This document shows positions 41,185-61,934 of a DNA stretch of 64,000 nt, in pieces. The notes beneath the pieces were generated by a model. That model was not told where the DNA came from. It searched no databases and saw nothing but the letters and a program-made list of their open reading frames with translations. Source of the stretch: Adhaeribacter aquaticus DSM 16391 (GTDB lineage Bacteria > Bacteroidota > Bacteroidia > Cytophagales > Hymenobacteraceae); contig NZ_AXBK01000003.1 in assembly GCF_000473365.1 (NCBI RefSeq), forward strand, positions 1 through 64,000, written 5' to 3'. The translations under genes and the position numbers were made by a program. Within the stretch, counting starts at the first letter, position 1, and every line of letters starts with the position of its first letter.

Positions 41185-41592
41185 AATAGGAACATTTTAA
41201 AAGCAGTAAAAAGAGCGACTTAATTTTACTAGCTTAAATTGAAACAGGAAAATTATCCCTGACAAAATTACCGGTTTTTTTTAATTTTTTTTCCCTTTAC
41301 TTTATACGTATTTTATACAAAAAGTAATTAAAATTTATCTTTTGGCCGCTTAGTTTTTTAGAATAAATTTATGGTGATTTAGTGCGCTAATAATCAGTTA
41401 TTTATCAGCTTATTAGGCATTAGGCAATTTTTTTATAGATATAAACAACTAGATTTTTTATATCCTGAGGTCCAATGGCATCCCCTTTTCCCGATAAATG
41501 CTTAATTTTTATACTTTTACTGGTCTTTTGTAAGTATATCTTCCAGTAATCTCTTTTTAGTATAATATAGATTATAAAAAGAGTATATATAT
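41185..41592. other. AT-rich region beside the iterons
   Basis: Long A/T runs (41270-41420) next to the iteron array fit a DNA-unwinding element of the origin. No consensus DnaA box was found by eye. It also carries the promoter for the minus-strand pair at 40638-41184. Confidence 0.45.
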
Positions 41593-41945
41593 GGCTGCAA
41601 TACTTGAATGCCGGTACTCTAAACACACTTTAAAGGCACTTTTTTTTAGTGGCCCGGCTGCAATACTTGAATGGTTAGTAATTTCGGCTGCAATACTTGA
41701 ACGGGTGGCTGCAATACTTGAACGGTTAGGTACCCTTGGCTGCAATAGTTGAATGGTTGGGCTGCAATAGTTGAATGGTTCTAGCAGTTAGGCTGCAATA
41801 GTTGAATGAAAGGGTGCAATACTTGAACGGTTGGCTGCAATACTTGAATGGTTTTACCTATAAGCAGCCTTTTTAGAATCTTAAAATTAACCGGAGGTAT
41901 CTTTATAAGCCGGTAAAAAAAAGTAAGGCTGCAATACTTGAATGG
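41593..41945. repeat. Ten-copy iteron array, plasmid replication origin
   Basis: The 19-bp unit GGCTGCAATACTTGAATGG occurs ten times, all in one direction, starting at 41593, 41656, 41686, 41707, 41738, 41760, 41791, 41812, 41833 and 41927. Variation is limited mainly to C/G at position 12 and T/C at position 17. Start-to-start distances (63, 30, 21, 31, 22, 31, 21, 21, 94) are near multiples of the helical turn. Adjacent to a Rep_3-type initiator, this is the likely origin. It lies 13 bp after the rep stop codon, on the downstream side of the gene. Confidence 0.92.
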
Positions 41946-41958
41946 TCTTAAAAGCTAA

Positions 41959-43092
41959 TTATGCTTTCCTTTTTTCTATCAAATCCCACAACTTACCGTT
42001 GAGTAACATAGTTCTAGCTTCGTCCTTGGTTATTTCTTTATTATAAGCTTTGAAGAAACTCTTGGCAATAGCATCTATTTTTAAATTAATATCTTTGCTA
42101 TTGTTAGTTACCCAGCGCTGAAAAGGATCTTTTTCATCCTTTATTTCCACTTGTTTGTATTTATCGGAAAATATAAATGTTAGTTCTTCCATCAGTTTCA
42201 GGAAGAAAATATTATCTCCGATAACTTCGGCTGTTAAATCATGGAATGTCAGCTCTACCCAATATTCCTCCTGGTATGGTTTATCTAAATCCCCTCGAAC
42301 GAACTGGTACGTAAAATTAAGTTCGCCTACGGTTCGCATCGCTTCCAATACTCTTTTTAAGGATGTTTTTCTGTTCTTTGGTTCTTCTACTACAATTCCC
42401 GCAATCCCAGCAAGGTAGTCAACGGTGAATTTGGTAGATGGGATCAGCCTGGAAAGGAGAATATGCCGGGTCTTTTCCAGGAGAACGTACAGGCTCTTTC
42501 TACCATCGCCCCCTCTGCCTTTGCCAATCTTGCTATACCCTTTGGTATCAATTATATAATAGCGCTGTAGAAATCCTTCTATTACTTCCGGGGCCAGCCG
42601 GATTTCATATAGTTTTACATTTCCGTTATTACGGTCATGATTTAGCTTTATGTCTTGAAGAATAGAAAATTTAGTTAAGTGGGTGGTTTCTCCCTTATTG
42701 TTATAAGTATAAGATTTATCAAAGACAATGTTATGGCGGATCATGTTGAGCAGCGCAAAATCAAACACGGTTTTAAAGGTGTGCCCATTGTAAACCGGGG
42801 GTGAGGCTTTCTTATTATTTATAAAGAAAGGGTGCACTTCGCAAAGGGTTTGTTTATTGCGGCCTGTTTCCTTGCAAAACTGGCCTAAAGTGAAGGTAGT
42901 AAATCCGAACAGATCGTATTTTAATCTTTTAGAGATAAATACAATAAAATCCTTTACTATCCCTGCATCATCAAAAAAACTAGATTCAATGGATTTTAGG
43001 TTATCTGCTATACTTCTGTCAATCCTACTGAGGAAGTAATTCTGTTGCATAAAAGATTCCTTATTCGGATTTTCTTGTTCGCTCATAGCCAT
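41959..43092 (-). CDS. Plasmid replication initiator, Rep_3/RepB type
   Basis: The start is placed at 43092 (ATG); an upstream TTG at 43104 is less likely. The 377-aa protein has the two winged-helix halves of iteron-binding initiators: residues about 15-160 (YFLSRIDRSIADNLKSIESSF...FGFTTFTLGQFCKETGRNKQTL) and about 190-290 (GGDGRKSLYVLLEKTRHILLSRLIPSTKFTVDYLAGIAGI...TSLKRVLEAMRTVGELNFTYQF). It binds the iterons just downstream to open the origin. A 59-codon membrane protein gene ends 22 bp before it. Confidence 0.88.
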   Translation of the reverse strand: MAMSEQENPNKESFMQQNYFLSRIDRSIADNLKSIESSFFDDAGIVKDFIVFISKRLKYDLFGFTTFTLGQFCKETGRNKQTLCEVHPFFINNKKASPPVYNGHTFKTVFDFALLNMIRHNIVFDKSYTYNNKGETTHLTKFSILQDIKLNHDRNNGNVKLYEIRLAPEVIEGFLQRYYIIDTKGYSKIGKGRGGDGRKSLYVLLEKTRHILLSRLIPSTKFTVDYLAGIAGIVVEEPKNRKTSLKRVLEAMRTVGELNFTYQFVRGDLDKPYQEEYWVELTFHDLTAEVIGDNIFFLKLMEELTFIFSDKYKQVEIKDEKDPFQRWVTNNSKDINLKIDAIAKSFFKAYNKEITKDEARTMLLNGKLWDLIEKRKA

Positions 43093-43114
43093 AAAATTAA
43101 TCAAATTTTAATTT

Positions 43115-45078: not shown

Positions 45079-45165
45079 AGCTAACAAGCCTTTAAATGCT
45101 TCTTAGCGTTCAGTATATGCAAAGCCCGTCGCAGAGCAAGTGTTTTGTATATGCATTTTTAGTTC
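45079..45165 (-). repeat. Degenerate attC-like site after the 159-aa gene
   Basis: On the minus strand this stretch holds CTGCGACGGGCTTTGCATAT, closely similar to CGCTACGGGCTTGGCATATA in the site at 51909-51972, and a GTTAGCT at its far end (45079-45085). The octamer GCATATAC occurs twice, directly repeated. It lies just downstream of the gene, the position expected of a cassette's recombination site, but the core pair is not preserved. The rest of the gap 44857-45177 shows nothing else. Confidence 0.4.
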
Positions 45166-45177
45166 TCGTTTTTCAAC

Positions 45178-45657
45178 CTAAAATTTATAAACAAGCTGAA
45201 TTCTAGCACTTGGAAGAAACAAAAAACGTAAGTTGCTCTCATCTTCATAAGTATCATCAGGGATCTTTCTTCCCCAAAGTTTTATAGAGGCCCCGAAGTC
45301 AGTATTTAAACCAAATCTATTGGTGATATTTAAGTGTCTACCGATGCTAGGCGTTAAATATAAGGTTTTAAAAATCTTGGTGCCATTATCTTCATATATA
45401 TAAGTAAGCCTTTGACCAAAATGCCAGGTTGGAAGAGTGGCAAATTTTCTAGAATAATGAAAATTTAGTTTGTGTTCAAGGGTGAAATGAACAGAAGTAT
45501 ATGATTCTAAAGGAATGTAACCGAAATTAAATCCCAGGCTATTTCTTTTTGCAATATCTCTATTTAGCCCTATTTGCAGAAATTCTGGAAGTCCAATTCC
45601 TAAGGCTACTTCCCAGTTTCTTTCCTGGGCAAAAACGCCATTTACTAACATTAGCAA
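45178..45657 (-). CDS. Small outer membrane barrel-like protein, possible cassette gene
   Basis: The 159-aa frame has strand-like repeats ending in a terminal Phe (LGIGLPEFLQIGLNRDIAKRNSLGFNFGYI...FLPSARIQLVYKF), the mark of outer membrane barrels. A signal peptide is cut at the start: the in-frame codons before the ATG read TFKNPFLIAVLL, completing it, but an in-frame TAG and no ATG lie further upstream. The true start may be a rare codon (TTG) or the start may be lost. Related attC-like repeats lie on both sides. Confidence 0.6.
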   Translation of the reverse strand: MLMLVNGVFAQERNWEVALGIGLPEFLQIGLNRDIAKRNSLGFNFGYIPLESYTSVHFTLEHKLNFHYSRKFATLPTWHFGQRLTYIYEDNGTKIFKTLYLTPSIGRHLNITNRFGLNTDFGASIKLWGRKIPDDTYEDESNLRFLFLPSARIQLVYKF

Positions 45658-45714
45658 AACTGCTATTAAAAATGGATTTTTGAATGTAAACTAGTTTTCC
45701 TTAATATAAATGAG

Positions 45715-45755
45715 ACCTAACTACACGCAAAACGGAGTTCGTTTCGGTTATTGCC
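45715..45755 (-). repeat. attC-like site, minus orientation
   Basis: The minus strand reads CAATAACCGAAACGAACTCC, then GTTTTG and ends TAGTTAGGT. It is a relative of the sites at 46932 and 51448 (CAATAACCGGAACG-CACTCC). The terminal GTTAGGT (45715-45721) matches the attC core GTTRRRY. It lies at the 5' side of the 159-aa gene, as a cassette boundary would. Confidence 0.5.
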
Positions 45756-45882
45756 TATAGAAATAAAATCTTCCTTTCCCAATATTATAAAATTTCATTA
45801 TACCAGAAGGTCAGTGAGCATCAATTTTTTATTCACTTATTAAGTAAAAACCGTATAATCTTACTTTAAATGGTTTTCTTTC

Positions 45883-46263
45883 ATGGCTCCTGTTAAAAAA
45901 ATTCTTACCTCTTTGCAATTCCCGAATTCGGAATTAATGGTAACCTATTCCGATGTGCTAAGATATGTCCAGTATAGGCTTAAAATATTGGGGCATGGGC
46001 AGCTTAAAGCCTTCTGTCAGAAATTTTCTTTTCCGTATAACAGTGTGGTTAACCTGAAAAATGGAACCCTTAAAAGAAAAGAGCACTGGCTACTCCAACG
46101 CATTTTAGCAACTCTTTCATTTGAAACTTCAGCACTTCAAAATCCTTTGGCTACTGGTGACATGGACCGTTATTATTATCTATTCCCAGGACAGAGCGAA
46201 CTTCAACAGTTTAAAGAGCAATTAGCCATTATAGATAAGCAGGTCCCGATTTTTCCAAGTTAA
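45883..46263 (+). CDS. Hypothetical protein with HTH-like centre, 126 aa
   Basis: The region HGQLKAFCQKFSFPYNSVVNLKNGTLKRKEHWLLQRILATLSF looks like a helix-turn-helix of the Cro/CI type, with a short C-terminal tail. It is isolated on its strand, between two oppositely oriented repeats of the attC-like family. Function unknown; DNA binding is inferred from the helix pattern only. Confidence 0.5.
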   Translation: MAPVKKILTSLQFPNSELMVTYSDVLRYVQYRLKILGHGQLKAFCQKFSFPYNSVVNLKNGTLKRKEHWLLQRILATLSFETSALQNPLATGDMDRYYYLFPGQSELQQFKEQLAIIDKQVPIFPS

Positions 46264-46454
46264 ATTGCTTAGAAAAAAGATTTTATTCTGATTTAGTGAC
46301 TTTATACTTTGGACTGATATTAATATATAAGGCGAAGGCAAACTCCCAGCATTTTTTGGAAATTCGTTATGACAGCCTTTAACTATTGAGCTTTAAAGTT
46401 AATTTAGTCTAAAAGAAGGCTTATGCATTGGAAAGCATCCTATTAAAAATTAAA

Positions 46455-46604
46455 TCAAGATATAGTAATTCCGGTTTCAAGAACAATTTTATTTAGTAAC
46501 AGTAGAAATTTATCAAAATCTTTCGGATAAGCATTTGAACCATAGGTATTAATCTTAAAATTTTTGGATTCAGCTTTCAGCTCCCATTGGGTACCGTCGT
46601 ACAT
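46455..46604 (-). pseudogene. C-terminal remnant of a small hypothetical gene
   Basis: The minus strand encodes MYDGTQWELKAESKNFKINT, then YGSNAYPKDFDKFLLLLNKI and a stop, with YIASRYYSNP in frame before it until a TAG. The phrase W-x-L...G-S-N-x-Y-P-x-x-F-D is familiar from small Bacteroidota orphan proteins, usually longer than this. It is probably the tail of a broken gene. The remaining gap to 46931 shows nothing else. Confidence 0.5.
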
Positions 46605-46931
46605 GGGGTTGCTATAGTATCTGGACGCAATGTATCGCTAAGGATATAAGAATATGATAATGAGCAATATTTAAAGCGTTAAAATATTATAAAAATTCAA
46701 TTAGCAAATACAAAAGTAGCCATTAAAGCTTACCAAGGCCCTTTCAAAGGCTTACCGATACAAAATGGCTGAATACTACAGGAACCCCATAAGCTCTTTT
46801 ATGTTAAACAGGATAGAACAATCGCTAAAATACCAAGTCAACTAGATAAATAATTAAATACAGTATATTAGCCAGCTGCTTAAGGGTATATGGTGGCAAA
46901 CCTAGATACAAAAACCGGTTTCTACCACTCC

Positions 46932-47023
46932 ACCCAAAGGCTCAATAACCGGAACGACACTCCGTTTAGCCGCCCATATTGGGTTGTAGACCGGAACTCG
47001 TTCCGTTTATCCATTAGTTGGGT
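46932..47023 (+). repeat. attC-like recombination site before the 171-aa gene
   Basis: The 92-bp element starts ACCCAAA (46932) and ends GTTGGGT (47017-47023), close to the complementary RYYYAAC/GTTRRRY cores of integron attC sites. ATAACCGGAACGA (46945-46957) pairs with TCGTTCCGTTTAT (46998-47010) at 12 of 13 positions, giving a long imperfect hairpin, as attC sites fold. The first 35 bp are nearly identical to the site at 51448. Confidence 0.6.
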
Positions 47024-47037
47024 GGTATAAAATAACT

Positions 47038-47553
47038 ATGAGAAAAATTATTCCATTACTTTTCTTATTTATTGTTAGTTGTACAAGTATTCAAATACCT
47101 GTGCAGGAAGAACAATCTTTAAAATTAATTTTTGAACCTGAATCTAATAAGACAACCCAATTCTATCCAGTAGAAGATGCCGGGGAATTTTTAGCTAGTA
47201 TTTTGAACCTGCGAAACATAGCTAAGGATAGTATTAAATATGCACAGCTTGAATTAAGGCAAATAGACAATAAGAACATTCAAATCAAAAGCATATTTAA
47301 AGAGGAAGTAAATATTGCGGTATTACGTGGAGAATTTAAAGAGAAGGTATTTAGAATAAGAACTAAACGCCAGACAACTGGTATACCGCCTTTAGCATGG
47401 GTATTAAAAAGCACTTCTAGCTCATTGATTAAAAATAGTGAGGGAGATTTAGTTTTTTACCAACATAATGGGGGAGTAATTTTTCTAACCCTTATGCCAA
47501 TTTTTGGGACTAGTAATGGTCAAAATAAGTATATTTTCCGATCAGTTAATTGA
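47038..47553 (+). CDS. Hypothetical lipoprotein, probable gene-cassette content
   Basis: The 171-aa product has a lipoprotein signal (IIPLLFLFIVSCTS) and a mixed body (LIFEPESNKTTQFYPVEDAGEFLASILNLRN...GEFKEKVFRIRTKRQTTGIPPLAW...GGVIFLTLMPIFG). No family recognised. Its start lies only 14 bp after one attC-like site, and another follows its stop by 15 bp. A single gene tightly bounded by such sites is the layout of an integron cassette. Confidence 0.65.
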   Translation: MRKIIPLLFLFIVSCTSIQIPVQEEQSLKLIFEPESNKTTQFYPVEDAGEFLASILNLRNIAKDSIKYAQLELRQIDNKNIQIKSIFKEEVNIAVLRGEFKEKVFRIRTKRQTTGIPPLAWVLKSTSSSLIKNSEGDLVFYQHNGGVIFLTLMPIFGTSNGQNKYIFRSVN

Positions 47554-47567
47554 AAAAAAATAACACC

Positions 47568-47620
47568 ACACAACCACACCTAAAAACCACCAGGGCGCTT
47601 TTTAGGACCATACGTTGGGC
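47568..47620 (+). repeat. attC-like site after the 171-aa gene
   Basis: From ACACAAC (47568) to GTTGGGC (47614-47620, a match to GTTRRRY). CCTAAAAA (47579-47586) pairs perfectly with TTTTTAGG (47599-47606) as the inner hairpin. The 5' core differs by one base from the RYYYAAC consensus. Confidence 0.5.
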
Positions 47621-48108
47621 TTAATTCTCCACATATTAACTATTAATTTCTGTAGCTAACGATAGCCTATTTCGAAGGGGATTCGTATTTTTCACTGATG
47701 CTCTATGTTAAGGCCGTATTTTAATTGATGCATTACAGCTCGCGCGTAATTCTGGCTAGGAATGCAATGCTTCCTTAGGAAGATATGATAATTTCAGTGG
47801 TGGCTCCCTGGAGACCCCGTTCAGGATACTTATAGAATTCTACAAGCATTCCCTTAGAGCAATTTTTTAGCTTATTTTAAAAACTGAAAAATCAGTTAAG
47901 GGCCTTTCTTTGCCTTTTCAGAGACCACATCATTGAATTTTCGCCGTTTTTCACTACTTTCAACAATAGCGTTAGTCAGGATATTAAATCTAATCTAACA
48001 TTTTGAATCATTTTTAAAATTTAAAAGAATAGTTTTTAAATTATTTTATAATCCCATGTAACTTTTAGGCAGGTTCAAGCCACTTACTATTATATCAATC
48101 TATGAGCC
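47621..48108. other. Intergenic region before an ECF sigma gene
   Basis: No gene supported. It must hold the promoter of the sigma factor gene near 48000-48090, in a strongly AT-rich stretch. No remnant gene was recognised. Confidence 0.35.
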
Positions 48109-48708
48109 ATGCCCGAACCCTCACCAGAAATTAATAAACAGGCCGTATTTTTACAGCTTTACCAGCCCGTTCATGATCGTTTTGAGCGCTACTGCCAAGC
48201 CCAGACCAGCAATAATGTTGATGCTAAGGATTTAGTGAGCGAAACGATACTAATTGCTTACGAAAAATTCGATAGCCTGCGAAATACCGATGCTTTTCTT
48301 TCCTTCTTATTCGGGGTGGCTTCTCGCCTGATTAAAAATAAATCAAAAAAAAATAAATTCTGGGGGATATTTAAAGAAAAGAAATCCGAAAGAATCAAAG
48401 ACCAAACCCTAAACGCTGAAGCTGCTACTGATATTAATATTCTCTATCAAGCTTTAAACCAACTACCCGAAAATCATAAAGAGGCAATAATTTTATTTGA
48501 AATTTCCGGCTTCTCCCTGAAGGAAATTCAAGGAATCCAGCAGATTAGTTTATCGTCTGTTAAATCCCGCTTGGTCAGAGGCCGCACTAAACTGGCTCAA
48601 ATCCTGAAAGACCACGAAACAGATATTTATAATTCCAAAATTCCTTTAAGAGGTATTTCCAACCAGCCTATGCCTTCCCAAAATCTACCACTTACAACAG
48701 TTTCCTAA
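48109..48708 (+). CDS. ECF-family RNA polymerase sigma factor
   Basis: The 199-aa protein has region 2 (FERYCQAQTSNNVDAKDLVSETILIAYEKFDSLRNTDAFLSFLFGVASRLI) and region 4 (LPENHKEAIILFEISGFSLKEIQGIQQISLSSVKSRLVRGRTKLAQIL). It is followed after 11 bp by a single-helix protein with a T9SS tail, likely its partner. A basic stretch between the two regions (KNKSKKNKFWGIFKEKK) is longer than usual. Target genes are unknown; the nearby beta-propeller gene is a candidate. Confidence 0.9.
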   Translation: MPEPSPEINKQAVFLQLYQPVHDRFERYCQAQTSNNVDAKDLVSETILIAYEKFDSLRNTDAFLSFLFGVASRLIKNKSKKNKFWGIFKEKKSERIKDQTLNAEAATDINILYQALNQLPENHKEAIILFEISGFSLKEIQGIQQISLSSVKSRLVRGRTKLAQILKDHETDIYNSKIPLRGISNQPMPSQNLPLTTVS

Positions 48709-48719
48709 AAAATAGAATT

Positions 48720-50141
48720 ATGAAAAACGACCAAAATTTGTTATCCCATTATTTCGAAACTGCTAAATCCCAACCATCAGTAATTTCTATTGATGAAATA
48801 AAAGAGCTGATACAAACCGTTGCCAGCCCAACTTCCAAGGTACACTCCTCTAAAGCATCTTTTTCTTCGATGCATAAATTATTCGTAATTGGGACCAGTG
48901 TTGCATCCCTGATGGTGGCTTCTTTTTGGTATGCCCTGGAGAATTTACCTGTCTCAAAAAACGAATCTAAGCTATCTAATATAAACCCCACGGAACAAAA
49001 TGAATCAGTACATACCAACCCTGGTGAAACTACTGGTTCAACTACTTCCACAATTGCACAAAGAGGGCAAGTAAAGAGTTCTTCTGAAGAAAATCCGGGA
49101 AGTTCTAATAGCTCTACTTTTATTCTTTCAAATGAGCAGGTAGCCAAAAATGATGCGGAAAGCCTATTAGATTCACCGGATAATGGTTCTAAACCATACT
49201 TAACGGTAGACCCTCAAACTTTAAATAAACTTGGGGCTGGTGTAGGAGCAGAAGGAGTGAAATTCCATTATTATATGGATGAAAGTGCCGGCAGTATTGC
49301 TAGTGTAACTGTTAAAGGAAATCGACATAACAGAGGGTCGTTTAAATATACTATTCAAGGTAGATTTAAATCCACAACTAAAAATGCAGCTGGTAGAGAT
49401 ACCACCTATTTTAGGGCTGAGGCTTTTCATAAGAAGTATTTATATTATTTAAAAATTGAAAACCTCTTAGCTAACAAAAGAATCCCAACGCCCATTTTCG
49501 CTTCAAATATACAGGGTACCTTTAAAACAGGTAAGTTCAGGAACTTCGAAAGGAAGTTTGATCATACTATTGATTTTTCCAAGCTTGTCCCCATTTTGGT
49601 AGAAACTAATAATGCCGATAAAGATGAAGCTTTACTTTGGTTTGAGCCTACCCCAGCGTTCTTAGAGGTATTGCCATCAAATCTTGCTAAAGAGTCATTA
49701 GCCATAATAAACAGGCGTACCCCAAAAGAAATTGAGATGTTAAAGTCTCATGAAAGAAGCATGAATAGAGAACAATATTACAGAGTTACAAAAGTACCTG
49801 GAATTAAAGAACTTAATAAACCTAATTCAAAAATTCTCAATGGGGAATCGCCTAAATCTGCATCCGCCTCTGATATTAAGCTGACCAATCTTATTGTTTA
49901 CCCTAATCCTACCAGCGAGTGGCTTAATTTAAAAGTTACCATGCAGGAAAAACAAATTGCCAAAATATATTTAACTAATTTAAACGGGCAATTAGTCAAA
50001 GTTTTGCAGTCGTCCGCTTTACTGTCTGCCGATGAAAATTTAATTTCTTTTAAGGTATCAGAATTGCCTTCTGGCATGTATGTTTTAATCCTTCAACTGG
50101 AAAAGGGCAAACCATTAACGAAACGAATTATCATAAAATAA
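48720..50141 (+). CDS. Single-helix protein with T9SS C-terminal sorting domain
   Basis: The 473-aa product has a cytoplasmic-type N-terminus (MKNDQNLLSHYFETAKSQPSVISIDEIKELI), one transmembrane helix (about 51-69; FVIGTSVASLMVASFWYAL), a Ser/Asn/Thr-rich linker, a folded domain (about 160-330) and a clear type IX secretion C-terminal domain (LIVYPNPTSEWLNLKV...GQLVKVLQ...LPSGMYVLILQLEKGKPLTKRIIIK). The start resembles anti-sigma proteins paired with ECF factors, which are held in the inner membrane, yet the tail directs export to the surface. How both are used is unclear. Position supports anti-sigma function. Confidence 0.75.
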   Translation: MKNDQNLLSHYFETAKSQPSVISIDEIKELIQTVASPTSKVHSSKASFSSMHKLFVIGTSVASLMVASFWYALENLPVSKNESKLSNINPTEQNESVHTNPGETTGSTTSTIAQRGQVKSSSEENPGSSNSSTFILSNEQVAKNDAESLLDSPDNGSKPYLTVDPQTLNKLGAGVGAEGVKFHYYMDESAGSIASVTVKGNRHNRGSFKYTIQGRFKSTTKNAAGRDTTYFRAEAFHKKYLYYLKIENLLANKRIPTPIFASNIQGTFKTGKFRNFERKFDHTIDFSKLVPILVETNNADKDEALLWFEPTPAFLEVLPSNLAKESLAIINRRTPKEIEMLKSHERSMNREQYYRVTKVPGIKELNKPNSKILNGESPKSASASDIKLTNLIVYPNPTSEWLNLKVTMQEKQIAKIYLTNLNGQLVKVLQSSALLSADENLISFKVSELPSGMYVLILQLEKGKPLTKRIIIK

Positions 50142-50228
50142 ATACTGCCTTATTACTGGCCCAACAAAGGCTAGTAATTAGGTTATGTTTAAATCATAAA
50201 AAGGCCAATATTATCTAATACATTTTGC

Positions 50229-51371
50229 ATGAGAAAAACTGGGTTATACCTATTTCTTATTTGCTCATTTTTTTCTTGTGATAATATTGCAAGCCAAAAT
50301 GATACAATCTTTTTAAAAAAGATTGAAATTAATCCCCAGGAAGCAACGCCTAAATTTCTGGAAGACCTGGCGGAGGAGACGGTTTTTACCCCACTAACTC
50401 CTCCGTTTGGGTTAAAAATCAAAAAAATTGACCGTGTATTCTTTGCAGACAGTCTTATTTTTATTTTAGATAAAAGTCTTGATGCCGTCCTCATTTTTGG
50501 AAAGGATGGTAAAATGCTTAATAAAATTCCCGCTAAAGGCAAAGGTCAGGGTAAATTCACCCAAATAACAGATGTGTTTTTTGATAAGATTGAAAAGAAG
50601 GTTGAGGTATATGACGGTGCAATAAGTAAAATTGTTATTTATGATTTCCAAGGCAAATTTATAGAAGAAAAAAATATAAATTCTCCGGAGAAGTCTGGGG
50701 CTATGTTTTATAAATTTAACAACAATTACTTTTTTGAACGAATCACAGTAATTAAAGCAGATAAAGGGAGGTTATCTGTATTTTCAAATAATAACCCTTC
50801 TTATAAAAAAAGCTTTTTAGAAATACCAAATTCAATATCTAATGTTGCTTATGGAGTTAATTTTAATGCGGCCATATTTAGGGATTCTCTTTTTTATATT
50901 CCCTTATTGGATAATAAAATATATTCTGTTTCTGCAAATGACGCTAAACCAGTATATGAATTAATTCTGCCGGAAAAATACTTGGTTCCAGAAAAACTGG
51001 TAAACGGTCCAGCAATGGAAGACTATAATGAGTTTTTAGGAATTATGTCTAACCAGGGTGCCGTATATGGCTTTTCTCATCTGTTTATGAATGAGAATTA
51101 TATTGCCGGCTCCTATAAAGAAGGATATCAACCATGGTCTCTTAAATTCATTTATTCAAAGCGCACTGGCAAGACTTTAAATTATACAAAATTGAAAAGT
51201 CACGTTGTACCTTCTTTGAATGTTTCAGGAAGTGTGATAGGAAATAATGGTGACTACTTTATTATAAATATTCATCATTTGCAATATGAAAATCTACCTG
51301 TAAACACAAGTAAATTTAAATTAAAAGGAAATTCCATTATTTTAATGCAAATTAAATTTAAAGAATTTTAA
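50229..51371 (+). CDS. 6-bladed beta-propeller lipoprotein
   Basis: The 380-aa product has a lipoprotein signal (YLFLICSFFSC) and then repeats of the 6-bladed propeller kind: DSLIFILDKSLDAVLIFGKDGKMLNKIPAKGKGQGKFTQITDVFFDKIEKKVEVYD and so on. Such proteins in Bacteroidota often occur near sigma/anti-sigma or TonB genes and bind unknown surface ligands. It follows the T9SS protein by 87 bp on the same strand. Confidence 0.8.
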   Translation: MRKTGLYLFLICSFFSCDNIASQNDTIFLKKIEINPQEATPKFLEDLAEETVFTPLTPPFGLKIKKIDRVFFADSLIFILDKSLDAVLIFGKDGKMLNKIPAKGKGQGKFTQITDVFFDKIEKKVEVYDGAISKIVIYDFQGKFIEEKNINSPEKSGAMFYKFNNNYFFERITVIKADKGRLSVFSNNNPSYKKSFLEIPNSISNVAYGVNFNAAIFRDSLFYIPLLDNKIYSVSANDAKPVYELILPEKYLVPEKLVNGPAMEDYNEFLGIMSNQGAVYGFSHLFMNENYIAGSYKEGYQPWSLKFIYSKRTGKTLNYTKLKSHVVPSLNVSGSVIGNNGDYFIINIHHLQYENLPVNTSKFKLKGNSIILMQIKFKEF

Positions 51372-51447
51372 ATCAGATGGCTAATAGATGAAGGGGATTA
51401 AAGGTGGTAAAGCTAATTTTAAATTTAAAACAAGACAAAGCTGTTAC

Positions 51448-51498
51448 ACCCAAAGACTCAATAACCGGAACGGCACTCCGTTTATCTGCTAGTTATGC
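51448..51498 (+). repeat. attC-like site before the DUF4279-like gene
   Basis: ACCCAAAG at 51448 is followed by CTCAATAACCGGAACG (one base different after ACCCAAAG from the site at 46932) and CACTCCGTTTAT, then GTTATGC at 51492-51498. ATAACCGGA pairs with TCCGTTTAT at 8 of 9 positions. Compared with 46932 it lacks the inner 40 bp. Confidence 0.6.
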
Positions 51499-51518
51499 TT
51501 CATGTTAAATAAGAAAGA

Positions 51519-51896
51519 ATGGTATATAACAGAATTTGTATTTCCACGGACGACACCTTAAATACTTATAATACTATAACACAGATATTAGGAATTGCAC
51601 CTACGGAGTTTAAAAGCAATAATAAATTCGATAATAGCTATGGCGTATGGACTTATTCAGTAGATATTAATGACGAAGAACCATATTTTGATTTTATAAA
51701 TAATTTCCTCGATATCCTTGAGCCTAAATTTGACAGCTTAGAAAAGATTGGTATCCAAAAAGATGACATTTCTTTTTGGCACCTTTATGAATACGACCAA
51801 CAATGTTCGATGGAATTTCAACCTCTGGAAATGAAGCGACTTGGTGAAAGTGGAATAACCTTATGTATTGACTGTTGGGAAAAAGCCAGTGAATAA
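51519..51896 (+). CDS. DUF4279-like protein, gene-cassette content
   Basis: The 125-aa product fits DUF4279 proteins: a start of alternating strand pattern (MVYNRICISTDDTLNTYNTITQILGIAPTEF), then W-T-Y-S-V and FINNFLDILEPKFDSLEKIGIQKDD and a terminal ISFWHLYEYDQ...GITLCIDCW. These small soluble proteins often appear in mobile or immunity contexts, with unknown function. The gene starts 20 bp after GTTATGC and is followed after 12 bp by GCATAAC, its exact complement, as in an integron cassette. Confidence 0.7.
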   Translation: MVYNRICISTDDTLNTYNTITQILGIAPTEFKSNNKFDNSYGVWTYSVDINDEEPYFDFINNFLDILEPKFDSLEKIGIQKDDISFWHLYEYDQQCSMEFQPLEMKRLGESGITLCIDCWEKASE

Positions 51897-51908
51897 AAAA
51901 CCACGAAA

Positions 51909-51972
51909 GCATAACACAATATAAACCAAACCCTGCTTCGCTACGGGCTTGGCATATACCCGTCCGTTATCT
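51909..51972 (+). repeat. attC-like site after the DUF4279-like gene
   Basis: The site runs from GCATAAC (51909-51915) to GTTATCT (51966-51972). Inner arms CCAAACCC and GGGCTTGG pair at 7 of 8 positions around TGCTTCGCTAC. The 5' core GCATAAC is the exact reverse complement of GTTATGC at the other end of the cassette (51492-51498). Confidence 0.65.
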
Positions 51973-51992
51973 GAAGATGCTTATTTAAAAAT

Positions 51993-56651: not shown

Positions 56652-59600
56652 ATGAGCATATCTGAATACTTAGAAAAAATAAATATCCGCTTTAAAACTG
56701 GGATTTCGCGCGAACATAGTTACCGCGGGGATTTACAAACCCTACTCGAAAGCATAGCTAAAGATGTGTTGGTTACGAACGAGCCGGCAAGAGTAGCCTG
56801 TGGTGCGCCTGATTATATCATTACCCGCAAAGATATTCCGGTAGGTTACATCGAGGCAAAAGACCTGGGGAAGCCGCTCAACAGCAAAGATTACAAAGAG
56901 CAGTTCGACCGCTATAAAACTTCCCTCAATAATTTAATTATTACCGATTATTTAGATTTCTGGCTGTTTAAAGATGGGGAGTTTGTTACCAGCATTAAAA
57001 TTGCCGAAATTCAAAATGGGCAGGTTGTTCCTTTACCCGGAAACTTTGCTACGTTTGAAACTTTTATAAAAAATTTCTGCCAATATATTGGGGTAACGCT
57101 TAAGTCCCCCGCTAAATTGGCGGTAATGATGGCCGACAAAGCAAAGTTCCTGGCCCAGATTATAGAACGCGCGTTAACCGAAGACAGCAACTACCAGAAC
57201 CAGACGCTGCACGACCAGATGCAGGCGTTTAAGGATATATTAATTCATGACATTACCCCCAAGGAGTTTGCCGATATATATGCCCAAACGGTAGCCTACG
57301 GCATGTTTGCCGCACGTTTGCACGACCCCACGCTGCCCACTTTCTCCAGGCAGGAAGCAGCCGAACTGATACCGCGCACCAACCCCTTTCTGCGCAAATT
57401 ATTCAGTTACATTGCCGGGCCCGATATTGATGACCGCATAAAATGGATTGTAGATGCGCTGGCTGATGTATTTAGAGCGACGGATATTCTGACGCTGCTC
57501 ACCAATTTTGGCCGCGCCACCCAAACCCACGACCCGATTATTCATTTTTACGAAACGTTTTTGAGCGAATATGACCCCGCTTTGCGCAAAGCCCGGGGCG
57601 TTTGGTACACGCCCGAGCCGGTGGTAAAATTTATTGTGCGCGCCATAGACGATATTTTAAAAACTGAGTTTAATTTACCAAAAGGGCTTGCCGATACCAC
57701 CAAAACCAAAATAACTTTAAAAGTACCTACCAATGACAAGCGCTACACCGCCGGCCTTAGAGATTACGAGCAGGAAGTACACAAAGTACAGATTCTGGAC
57801 CCCGCCACCGGTACCGGCACGTTCCTGGCCGAAGTGGTAAAATATATTTACGGCAAAAACTTTGCAGCCATGCAGGGTGCCTGGAGCGGTTACGTAGAAG
57901 ACCATTTAATTCCGCGCCTGAATGGATTTGAACTACTCATGGCCTCGTATTCCATGGCGCATTTAAAGCTCGATATGCTGCTCCGCGATACCGGTTACGT
58001 GGCCAAGCGCGAACAGCGTTTCCGGATTTACCTCACCAACTCCCTGGAAGAACACCACAAAGACACCGGCTCACTGTTTGCCAACTGGCTCAGTTCCGAA
58101 GCCAACGAAGCCAACCAGATTAAACGCGATACGCCCGTCATGGTGGTCATGGGTAATCCGCCATACAGCGGCGAAAGTGCGAATAAAGGCGAGTGGATAA
58201 TGAATTTAATGGAGGATTATAAAAAGGAGCCGGGCGGGAAAGAGAAATTAAAAGAGCGAAATCCGAAATGGATAAATGATGATTATGTAAAATTTATCCG
58301 GTACGCGCAGCATTTTATTGAACGGAACGGCGAAGGAGTTTTAGCGTTTATTAATCCGCATGGTTTTTTAGATAATCCTACTTTTAGAGGAATGCGCTGG
58401 AATTTATTAAAGACTTACGATAAAATATATACGCTTGATTTACACGGCAATAGCAAGAAGAAAGAAATTTGTCCGGATGGCTCACCAGATATAAATGTGT
58501 TTGATATTCAGCAAGGTGTTTCAATAAATATATTTGTAAAAACCGGTAAAAAGAAAGCTGAGGAACTGGGACAGGTTTTCCATTTTGATTTATTCGGAAA
58601 AAGAGAATTAAAATATGATTTTTTAAATCAAAATAACCTTAAAACAATCCCTTATATAACCGTACCAAATGTTGCTCCAAACTATTTTTTTATAAAAAAG
58701 GGGTACGATATTCAACTAATTTATGATGAGGGATTTATAATTGCTGATTTATTTCCAGTTTCTTCAGTTGGAATTGTTACTTCAAAAGATGCTGTTCTAA
58801 TAAATACAGATAAAGATAAATTAATTAATAATGTAGGTGATTCTTATGAAATTGAAATAGAACATAATTTAATAAAACCAATTTCTTATAGGCCATTTGA
58901 TAATCAATTTGTTTATTACGATACTAAAATTTTAGAAAGACCTAGGGCTGAAAAGATGCGCCATTTCCTAAATAGGAATAATTTAGGTTTAGTTTTTTCT
59001 AGGCAATCAACTCATGAATACTGGAGTAACATCCAAATAACAAATTGTTTAATTGACAATAGATACCATTTTAGTTATAAAGGAATTCCTACAGAAGCTC
59101 CCCTTTATCTCTATCCCGAAAATTCAACTCAACAAAACATATTAACGGAAGCAAAACGCACGCCCAATCTCAATCCGGAAATCATAACCGAAATTGCCCG
59201 AAAATTAAACCTCACGTTCACGCCCGAAAAGGAAACTGAAGGCGAAGTTTGTTTTGCCAACAGCCCCAACGTACGCCCCGCGTTCCGGCAAACCTTCGCG
59301 CCCATTGATCTCCTGGATTACATATACGCCGTACTGCACAGCCCCGCCTACCGCGAAAAATACAAAGAGTTCTTAAAAATAGATTTCCCCCGCGTGCCGT
59401 ACCCGCAAGATGCCGAAACCTTCTGGCAACTCGTACAACTCGGCGGCCAGCTCCGCCAACTGCACCTTTTAGAAAGCCCCGAAACCGAAAATTATATCAC
59501 CCAATACCCCGAAGACGGTAATAATGTAGTAGAGAAAATCCGCTTTATAACCTACGATTATGGCCCGGTAGCCCTGGGAGAACCTTACCCCGATTATTTA

Positions 59601-59834
59601 GGCGGCGTGTACATAAACGAAACCCAATATTTCGCCGATGTGCCCACCTCGGCCTGGGAGTTTTACATCGGCGGCTATCAACCCGCCCAGAAATGGCTAA
59701 AAGACCGCAAAGGCCGTGAACTCGCCTTTGATGATATTCTACACTATCAGAAAATTATTGTGGCTTTAAAAAGAACAGCAGAGTTGATGAAGGAAATTGA
59801 TGAAGTATTTGTTTTAACTTCAGCATCCGCTTAA
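56652..59834 (+). CDS. Single-chain restriction-modification enzyme (type ISP-like/IIG)
   Basis: The 1060-aa product has an N-terminal PD-(D/E)XK nuclease (GAPDYIITRKDIPVGYIEAK; Asp54, Glu68, Lys70). A helical connector and an N6-adenine methyltransferase follow, with motif I DPATGTGTF (near 384) and motif IV NPPY (near 503). A target-recognition region (about 520-830) and a type ISP-like C-terminal specificity domain (YIYAVLHSPAYREKYKEFLKIDFPRVPYP) complete the chain. No helicase is present, so it is shorter than full ISP enzymes and acts like a type IIG enzyme. It would cut foreign DNA lacking its methyl mark. The recognition region is much more AT-rich than the flanks, suggesting exchange. 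Confidence 0.88.
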   Translation: MSISEYLEKINIRFKTGISREHSYRGDLQTLLESIAKDVLVTNEPARVACGAPDYIITRKDIPVGYIEAKDLGKPLNSKDYKEQFDRYKTSLNNLIITDYLDFWLFKDGEFVTSIKIAEIQNGQVVPLPGNFATFETFIKNFCQYIGVTLKSPAKLAVMMADKAKFLAQIIERALTEDSNYQNQTLHDQMQAFKDILIHDITPKEFADIYAQTVAYGMFAARLHDPTLPTFSRQEAAELIPRTNPFLRKLFSYIAGPDIDDRIKWIVDALADVFRATDILTLLTNFGRATQTHDPIIHFYETFLSEYDPALRKARGVWYTPEPVVKFIVRAIDDILKTEFNLPKGLADTTKTKITLKVPTNDKRYTAGLRDYEQEVHKVQILDPATGTGTFLAEVVKYIYGKNFAAMQGAWSGYVEDHLIPRLNGFELLMASYSMAHLKLDMLLRDTGYVAKREQRFRIYLTNSLEEHHKDTGSLFANWLSSEANEANQIKRDTPVMVVMGNPPYSGESANKGEWIMNLMEDYKKEPGGKEKLKERNPKWINDDYVKFIRYAQHFIERNGEGVLAFINPHGFLDNPTFRGMRWNLLKTYDKIYTLDLHGNSKKKEICPDGSPDINVFDIQQGVSINIFVKTGKKKAEELGQVFHFDLFGKRELKYDFLNQNNLKTIPYITVPNVAPNYFFIKKGYDIQLIYDEGFIIADLFPVSSVGIVTSKDAVLINTDKDKLINNVGDSYEIEIEHNLIKPISYRPFDNQFVYYDTKILERPRAEKMRHFLNRNNLGLVFSRQSTHEYWSNIQITNCLIDNRYHFSYKGIPTEAPLYLYPENSTQQNILTEAKRTPNLNPEIITEIARKLNLTFTPEKETEGEVCFANSPNVRPAFRQTFAPIDLLDYIYAVLHSPAYREKYKEFLKIDFPRVPYPQDAETFWQLVQLGGQLRQLHLLESPETENYITQYPEDGNNVVEKIRFITYDYGPVALGEPYPDYLGGVYINETQYFADVPTSAWEFYIGGYQPAQKWLKDRKGRELAFDDILHYQKIIVALKRTAELMKEIDEVFVLTSASA

Positions 59835-61364: not shown

Positions 61365-61934
61365 TTAAGAATTTGAAGCTAAATCTAAATATCGGTAACA
61401 AGTAGCCCGGGAAACACCTAATATTTTAGCAATGTCCTCCGCTGATTTGGTGCCCGTGGCATGAAGTATTTTAGCAGATTTAGCTTTCTCCATAGCAGCC
61501 GGCGATAAACCGGCCGGTCTCCCTCCTGCCCTACCCCGAGCTTTGGCAGCTACTAATCCCGCTTTGGTTCTTTCCTTAATTATCTCCCTTTCGAATTCTG
61601 CCAAGGAAGCAAAGATGTTAAATGTAAAGCGACCAGTGGAAGTAGCGGTATTGATGCCATCCTGTAAACTCACAAAGTCTACTCCCCTACTTTTAAAGTC
61701 CGCAACCAGGTCAATTAAGTCCCGGAGCGAACGCCCCAATCGGTCCAGCTTCCAAACGACTACCGTATCTCCTTCCCGGAGCTGACCTAACAGTTTCTCC
61801 AGCTCTGGCCTTTCTTTGTTTTTACCCGACTTCTTTTCCTGGTAAATCTGCTCACACCCATTTTTGGATAGAGCATCAATTTGCAGCTCCAACTTCTGGT
61901 CCTGGGTACTTACCCGGGCGTAACCTATTTTCAT
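61365..61934 (-). CDS. Serine recombinase (resolvase/invertase family)
   Basis: The 189-aa protein has the resolvase catalytic domain: MKIGYARVSTQDQ with nucleophile Ser9, LDRLGRSLRDL with arginines 65, 68 and 71, and FEREIIKERTKAGL at the E-helix. A C-terminal helix-turn-helix (KSAEDIAKILGVSRATCYRYL) binds the recombination site. On a plasmid it would resolve multimers to aid stable inheritance. A repeat-rich region directly upstream (61952-62073) looks like its res site. Confidence 0.92.
   Translation of the reverse strand: MKIGYARVSTQDQKLELQIDALSKNGCEQIYQEKKSGKNKERPELEKLLGQLREGDTVVVWKLDRLGRSLRDLIDLVADFKSRGVDFVSLQDGINTATSTGRFTFNIFASLAEFEREIIKERTKAGLVAAKARGRAGGRPAGLSPAAMEKAKSAKILHATGTKSAEDIAKILGVSRATCYRYLDLASNS

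Follow-up and report, generated by a model that had tools for sequence, protein, structure and literature searches.

Probable stranded gene cassettes in Adhaeribacter aquaticus point to integron-like gene capture in the Bacteroidia

The 64,000-nucleotide stretch analyzed here (the window) lies at the start of contig C2 (NZ_AXBK01000003.1, 105,845 bases) in the 5.17 Mb genome of Adhaeribacter aquaticus DSM 16391, a member of the Hymenobacteraceae. It very probably carries stranded, decayed gene cassettes that stem from an integron-like system of gene capture in the Bacteroidia: three small genes are bordered by attC-like end sites and by copies of an attI-like site. This cassette set is real but decayed and in itself a modest find; the interesting part is the system to which it points, which in intact relatives is laid out as a tyrosine recombinase gene, followed by an attI-like site and a string of short cassettes. 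As a lineage, the system fails the test that defines the integron integrase IntI, displays the structural traits of integrons and one instance of cassette mobility, is common in the Hymenobacteraceae and reaches other Bacteroidia. It is not called an integron outright because its integrases fail the test for the IntI insert. The site families, the cassette boundaries, the bottom-strand bias, a cassette common to two species and the linkage to the integrase were all established by computation. Throughout, C1, C2 and C4 denote contigs of the source genome, and L- and G-numbers the loci and genomes compared with it.

When an integron cassette becomes a circle, its opening bases are joined to the left arm of the site at its far end, and the two must therefore be complementary although hundreds of bases separate them; each of the three window cassettes shows this pairing. 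Cassette 1 (47018–47614, plus strand), which runs from the TT of one GTT to the G of the next, starts with GTTGGGTGGTAT and matches GTTGTGTGGTGT in its own end site at 10 of 12 positions. In cassette 2 (51493–51966, plus strand) the start GTTATGCTTCAT matches the end site GTTATGCTTTCG at the first 9 of 9 positions and at 9 of 12 overall, and in cassette 3 (45107–45720, minus strand) GTTAGGTCTCAT matches TTTAGTTCTCGT at 9 of 12. Outside the fixed GTT/AAC, the pairing extends to 7, 6 and 7 of 9 positions in cassettes 1 to 3, with rates among random pairs of 0.0025, 0.015 and 0.0025, respectively. These pairs were first spotted by eye, and an attC model trained elsewhere (R1, described below) later gave the same end sites: 47567–47621 for cassette 1 (plus strand; 29.8 bits, E 7e-5), 51908–51973 for cassette 2 (plus strand; 37.2 bits, E 1.1e-6) and 45100–45165 for cassette 3 (minus strand; 19.0 bits, E 0.03, or 0.0026 over 9 kb), the last of them decayed, with an R' reading GCTAAG. 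Unless stated otherwise, the window E-values refer to 104 kb and are rough by construction. All three sites fold better on the bottom strand (−8.6 vs. −6.6 on the top strand for the first, −7.3 vs. −4.7 for the second), the third by only 0.5 kcal/mol.

An earlier note on this DNA had taken six related repeats (at 45079, 45715, 46932, 47568, 51448 and 51909) as attC-like borders of three small orphan genes. A site is indeed present at all six places, but the repeats form two families rather than one: three are attC-like, and the other three are read as attI-like because they match the site found downstream of the integrase in relatives, a match for which their reading as attC was rejected. The hairpins ascribed to the repeats are clear at 46925–47030 (bottom-strand z −4.7, with none of 200 shuffles as stable) and moderate at 47560–47625 (bottom-strand z −2.6, 3 of 200 shuffles as stable), while the stretches folded around the other four repeats do not rise above background. 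The orphan status of the three genes was borne out: none matches NCBIfam at E ≤ 0.001 or exceeds a Pfam cut-off. The gene of cassette 1 (47038–47553, plus strand, 171 amino acids, no family) has a lipoprotein-like N-terminus by eye and weak homologues (28% and 24% identity) in 2 of 150 other genomes searched, both at loci holding model attC matches. That of cassette 2 (51519–51896, plus strand, 125 amino acids) resembles DUF4279 weakly (23.8 bits in Pfam, cut-off 25) and has homologues (44–51%) in 6 of the 150 genomes, all of genus g5, with no model attC match at those six loci. Cassette 3 encodes a protein of 159 amino acids with no family (45178–45657, minus strand). Recent transfer was not seen in the gene searches, which covered cassettes 1 and 2.

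The attI-like sites are organized around a 43-base body that is common to 46931–46973 and 51447–51489 (91% identity). Its pattern occurs twice in the window, against 0.01 expected, and genome-wide it is found at two exact places, both in the window, and at two chromosomal places with 3 mismatches, the backwards control giving 1. On the minus strand, the repeat at 45715 is a third, diverged copy of the same body. In a blastn comparison with the window, all three match the stretch behind the integrase in L075, an Adhaeribacter metagenome-assembled genome (MAG). The first (46927–47019, plus strand; E 1.3e-9) is doubled, with one core at 46931–46973 and a second (CCGGAAC..GTTCCGTTTATCCATTAGTT) reaching 47019; it has been aligned with 15 leaders from relatives and is the one with the bottom-strand fold noted above. 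The second (51447–51494, plus strand; E 8.4e-6) has neither leader nor integrase relic, and the third is the diverged copy (45719–45757, minus strand; E 1.6e-8). Ahead of the doubled site lies a possible relic of an integrase 3' end (46827–46853, plus strand), which reads KIPSQLDK-stop where intact relatives have KIxSPLDNL-stop and is followed, up to 46926, by a leader resembling that behind intact integrases. Compared with post-integrase leaders, 46790–46922 scores above all 200 shuffles. Upstream of the sites at 51448 and 45715 there is no leader likeness, 94 and 148 of 200 shuffles, respectively, being as good. Only the extreme end of an integrase could survive in the window, because tblastn with 35 integrases gave nothing significant there (best E 0.085); the earlier description of gene-cassette-like units with no local integrase was upheld.

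The intact form of the system can be seen in relatives. A scan of GTDB genomes with a 131-amino-acid recombinase fragment from the source genome returned 564 relatives, the best 80 of which were kept; the top ones belong to Pontibacter, Rufibacter, Adhaeribacter and Sabulibacter, with full-length integrases of about 485 amino acids. A conserved site follows the integrase stop codon in these relatives, and 15 of their leaders align with the head of an array in the source genome and with the three window repeats. The cassette GTT stands at a common site in 14 of the 15. In intact systems the GTT of the attI-like site is some 130–155 bp past the integrase stop in the Hymenobacteraceae and some 30–250 bp past it elsewhere. 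Chaining outward from the attI GTT by start/end complementarity and a stem requirement, at 14 named loci and two arrays of the source genome, yields 75 cassettes at a loose threshold of 8/12, and 66 of them pass 9/12 and a length limit. The Rufibacter locus L084 alone gives 15 consecutive cassettes, the first 13 with at least 10/12; L086 gives no cassette and L094 one poor one. Under a strict boundary test, which is independent of the attC model and places the first cassette at most 300 bp past the integrase stop, success was obtained at 12 of 21 Hymenobacteraceae loci and, outside the family, at 17 of 35 testable loci vs. 26 of 560 random anchors (a background near 5%, at which one or two of the 17 may be chance), after 24 of the 80 loci with less than 600 bp downstream had been dropped. 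An unanchored boundary scan over 1.23 Mb gave 453 matches in real sequence vs. 141 in shuffled sequence. At eight loci (L075, L076, L078, L079, L080, L083, L086 and L096) the contig stops 87–1362 bases past the integrase stop, as if array repeats broke short-read assemblies and the arrays thus hid themselves.

Model R1 was built on 61 of 66 sites, leaving out four from the source genome and one 88-base site of L085, and no window site entered its training. Over the 61 sites, all seven pairs of the L stem show compensatory double changes, and the bottom strand folds better in 58, as in integron attC sites. GTTR is present in 60 of the 61, whereas an R' of the form GTTRRRY occurs in only 7 and an R'' of the form RYYYAAC in 10. 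The weight that the earlier note had placed on GTTRRRY as evidence for attC could not be kept, since the window holds 144 copies of this motif and the attC sites of the system seldom carry it. The proposal that the repeat family may be uncharacterised fared better, as no published model covering it was found. Across 60 genomes of the family, model matches at E ≤ 0.01 are present in all 38 genomes of genera g1, g2, g3 and g6 (8–77 each) and in none of the 22 of genera g4 and g5. The distribution of the recombinase follows suit, with a fragment match of at least 155 bits in 34 of the 38 attC-bearing genomes and a match at E ≤ 1e-25 in a single one of the 22 others (114 bits). The remaining attC-bearing genomes (G009, G029, G042 and G057) have sites with no integrase match at this threshold, like the replicon of the window. 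At 56 loci of other taxa the model finds 15 matches at E ≤ 0.1, spread over 10 loci; apart from L137:6148, the other 14 matches all follow the integrase on its own strand.

Evidence that cassettes are precisely movable as units comes from one case in an all-against-all comparison. A cassette of about 600 bases adjoins attI in L089 and L078 (Pontibacter virosus, two contigs) and stands second in the array of L085 (P. oryzae); the likeness starts exactly at GTTGGCC and stops immediately ahead of the next GTT, and the sequences on either side are different. For the window cassettes no such case emerged.

The source genome itself retains further parts of the system. The search for an integrase in the same strain that the earlier note had called for turned up the integrase type of the relatives, which is truncated, heads two chromosomal arrays and is not IntI by the usual test. 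The truncated recombinase genes, of 131 and 139 amino acids, are each followed by a same-direction run of mostly small genes parted by hairpin sites, and at E ≤ 0.004 the attC model finds 7 sites behind the first and 4 behind the second. A genome-wide search with the model gave at least 21 matches at E ≤ 1, and 9 of these fall in the two integrase-linked arrays, so that the wide scatter with no link to gene ends that would have spoken against the earlier note is not what is observed. Its counts are lower bounds, since 150 of the 839 candidates were scored and the 47567 site (29.8 bits locally) escaped it. A search for the stem of the attC-like family, allowing 2 mismatches, gave 17 places, of which some are probably fortuitous matches within genes. 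Distances of 7 kb and 2 kb separate two of these places from a pair of fragments whose matches to TIGR02249 both stay under its cut-off. In the second chromosomal array, the site at L044:10330–10400 (C1:3130332–3130400) is a near-perfect palindrome (GGTAACGGTTTTTATATGC...) that is more terminator-like than its neighbours, yet fits the cassette chain. Four further model matches lie on another contig (C4:75732, 80965, 102051 and 102896), and two pairs about 400 bases apart (C1:4724488 and 4724884; C1:3955314 and 3955739) are perhaps single-cassette clusters on the chromosome.

Judged by their sequences, the linked integrases are not IntI as defined. Nine full-length members score 190–209 bits against TIGR02249, whose cut-off is 265, and in all nine the alignment breaks into two stretches, the best of which ends at profile position 178–180; in the fragments of the source genome the best stretch begins at 242–243. 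Two of the nine (L106 and L134) exceed the cut-off of the archaeal XerA-type model NF040815 (recomb_XerA_Arch). The insert of IntI, which reads the folded attC, is absent in 97 of 97 relatives: the distance from the box-K DR to HxLRH is 57–66 in all of them (60 in 91), as opposed to 102 in 26 of 26 true IntI, after 16 sequences with no clear motif (12 relatives and 4 IntI) had been dropped. The set of 97 includes some genes fetched twice, and only part of it has been shown to head arrays. A tree of 52 sequences places the 18 IntI in a single group with 100/100 support and all 32 insert-less enzymes on the other side. XerC/XerD dimer resolution relies on a housekeeping recombinase of about 300 amino acids, and the source genome carries two Xer-like genes of that size, with a box spacing of 71–73, which branch apart from both integrase groups, although their long branches call for caution; XerC/XerD as the enzyme, and dimer resolution as the function, were rejected on these grounds. 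In a whole-model Foldseek search, the matches at E ≤ 0.001 are taken up by tyrosine recombinases and by phage regulators of the recombinase fold, with XerA first and IntI4 third.

Many of the relatives carry N-terminal repeats with features suggestive of HARP, a fold of branched-DNA-binding proteins to which the N-terminal domain of XPB is akin. Against PF07443 (HARP), the integrase N-termini exceed the cut-off only in L146 (31.3 bits vs. 25), L118 reaching 21.2 bits, and matches at E ≤ 0.1 were found in 3 of 27 (L146, L118 and L097). None of the Hymenobacteraceae members scanned gave a HARP match, which lowers the weight of a HARP-like reading, and a profile of the N-terminus found two chance-level matches among PDB sequences (E 0.036 and 0.37). 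It is conceivable, though the balance tilts somewhat the other way, that the Bacteroidia, together with a few MAGs classified outside their phylum, harbor their own integron-like branch, which either never had the IntI insert or lost it and in which one to three N-terminal HARP-like modules would read the single-stranded hairpin instead. IntI may then be a derived sister and the insert no prerequisite for integrons; with only two long-branched Xer proteins as the outgroup of the tree, the insert may have been either gained or lost.

In the mechanism suggested by these comparisons, the recombinase would bind the folded strand of attC, probably the bottom one, and cut beside G|TT. Each cassette begins with TTRnnn and ends in an attC-like hairpin, the left arm of which pairs with that cassette's own start, and the recombinase would free or insert the cassette as a circle and join it to attI. 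Catalysis, the choice of strand, the role of the N-terminal repeats as the attC-binding part and the history of decay are inferred. In the window, cassette capture would be a past event. One attI still has what appears to be the terminal part of an integrase gene that was lost, no recognizable leader is left at the other two, and the cassettes would now be immobile unless an integrase were supplied from elsewhere.

Several observations weigh against reading the window as stranded cassettes of this system. The case is built from computation. The presence of two attI-like copies (51448 and 45715) with no integrase is unexplained, and the attI copies hold a partial palindrome, which means that the line between attI and attC is not absolute. 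The third attC-like site (45100–45165) is weak and its R' broken, this site and that at 47567 are both absent from the genome-wide model search at E ≤ 1 (150 of 839 candidates scored), and the two same-strand attC-like sites lie 4.3 kb apart, more than the 4 kb usually allowed per cluster. Within the window, the unanchored boundary scan gave 15 real vs. 13 shuffled matches, too loose a result to show the window cassettes. Among the relatives, one of the 15 leaders (L088) has no GTT at the expected place, and the success of the strict boundary test is limited to the 12 Hymenobacteraceae loci and 17 other loci given above.

In another reading, the attI-like sites at 51448 and 45715 would be the end sites of delta-attI-type cassettes, in which case 47615–51492, with its three genes, would be one large cassette and 46930–51973 a contiguous array. 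Cassettes of this kind work in class 1 integrons, according to the available text of PMC12901181, and all four sites between 46930 and 51973 have the same orientation. At the start of the large segment, 6 of 9 positions agree with the left arm of the 51448 site (0.015 among random pairs), but this arm resembles the other attI of the same type, so the match may mean nothing, and a length of 3.9 kb is large when compared with about 2 kb for the largest annotated cassette in the available text of PMC8352920. This arrangement is regarded as unlikely, at perhaps one chance among several.

An ordinary origin, in which the window would hold the remains of a classical integron with cassettes movable by IntI, is considerably less probable. 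The architecture, the bottom-strand bias and the cassette logic are all integron-like, and true IntI exceeds the cut-off in 105 of 395 genomes of the phylum. The source genome, however, has no IntI over cut-off, and among 108 genomes of the phylum that match IntI strongly only one (G186) is marked as belonging to the same class, the total of same-class genomes searched not being shown. In the 108 kb surrounding 30 true IntI genes the attC model gives no match, and both the missing insert and the scarcity of GTTRRRY at R' speak against an IntI origin. G186 is a place where a true IntI and the Bacteroidia-type system could meet. That the sites are plain terminator hairpins, or dispersed repeats akin to repetitive extragenic palindromes (REP) or miniature inverted-repeat transposable elements (MITE), with no role in recombination, is very hard to sustain: the hairpins do sit at gene ends and one chromosomal site (L017/L018) is a near-perfect palindrome, but the two ends of each unit are complementary even though an unrelated gene of hundreds of bases parts them, and such units form long chains, the between-species likeness stops at GTT and the presence of the sites tracks the integrase by genus.

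Set beside known systems, the stranded cassettes and their intact counterparts resemble integrons in having an integrase, an adjacent attI, head-to-tail cassettes, a GTT boundary, an R''-L''-L'-R' hairpin with a variable loop, a better-folding bottom strand and a cassette common to two species with exact limits. They differ in a Bacteroidia integrase that has no IntI insert, falls below the TIGR02249 cut-off (9 of 9) and in many cases bears N-terminal repeats, and in a distinct attC sequence family in which R' is rarely GTTRRRY. The integrase gene has the same orientation as the cassettes, whereas class 1 intI points away from its own. Like clusters of attC sites lacking integron-integrases (CALIN), the window has cassettes with attC sites and no integrase alongside; unlike them, it includes attI copies. 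At 4.3 kb, its same-strand attC sites also fall outside the CALIN definition of at least two attC within 4 kb with no integrase, 4 kb being the clustering limit in the available text of PMC8352920, and the chromosomal arrays are dense enough for CALIN but adjoin truncated integrase genes. The attI copies lie away from any integrase and flank single genes, as in delta-attI cassettes, but those described in the available part of PMC12901181 carry IntI1 or IntI2 sites in mobile resistance integrons, whereas the attI sites in the window belong to the Bacteroidia type and its cassettes appear to be stranded.

An integron-like subgroup of simple tyrosine recombinases has been described, with the insertion called essential for integron function (PMC8138268, in the part available); in contrast, the insert-less relatives considered here head cassette arrays. 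Integrons were selected by the IntI insert in the survey of PMC2426708, as far as its available text goes, and surveys based on the insert would by definition miss insert-less arrays. In the available text on IntegronFinder 2.0, a single complete integron is reported for the Bacteroidetes proper, in Salinibacter. The contrast with 38 of 60 genomes of one family bearing 8–77 model attC sites each (E ≤ 0.01) suggests that a large pool of mobile genes may go uncounted in an abundant phylum, and it raises the testable question of how a tyrosine recombinase reads folded single-stranded sites without the IntI insert. No published account of Bacteroidia cassette arrays with an insert-less integrase was found among the titles listed in a search of open-licence articles, preprints excluded, and other papers could exist.

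Rfam gave no match over the window at the gathering threshold. A reading frame at 41572–41745 contains repeated SSIAA units that correspond to short tandem DNA repeats (by eye), and close to it lies a gene for 381 amino acids with no Pfam match (41959–43104); the two are possibly the iterons and the replication initiator of the C2 replicon. An efflux operon of the MarR-TolC-HlyD type lies at C2 30703–33682, and from translations compared by eye it has a close homologue at L044:13653–16601 that adjoins a chromosomal integrase fragment. Downstream of the cassette region there are, also by eye, a large adenine-methylase-like gene (56652–59834) and a serine-recombinase-like gene (61365–61934).

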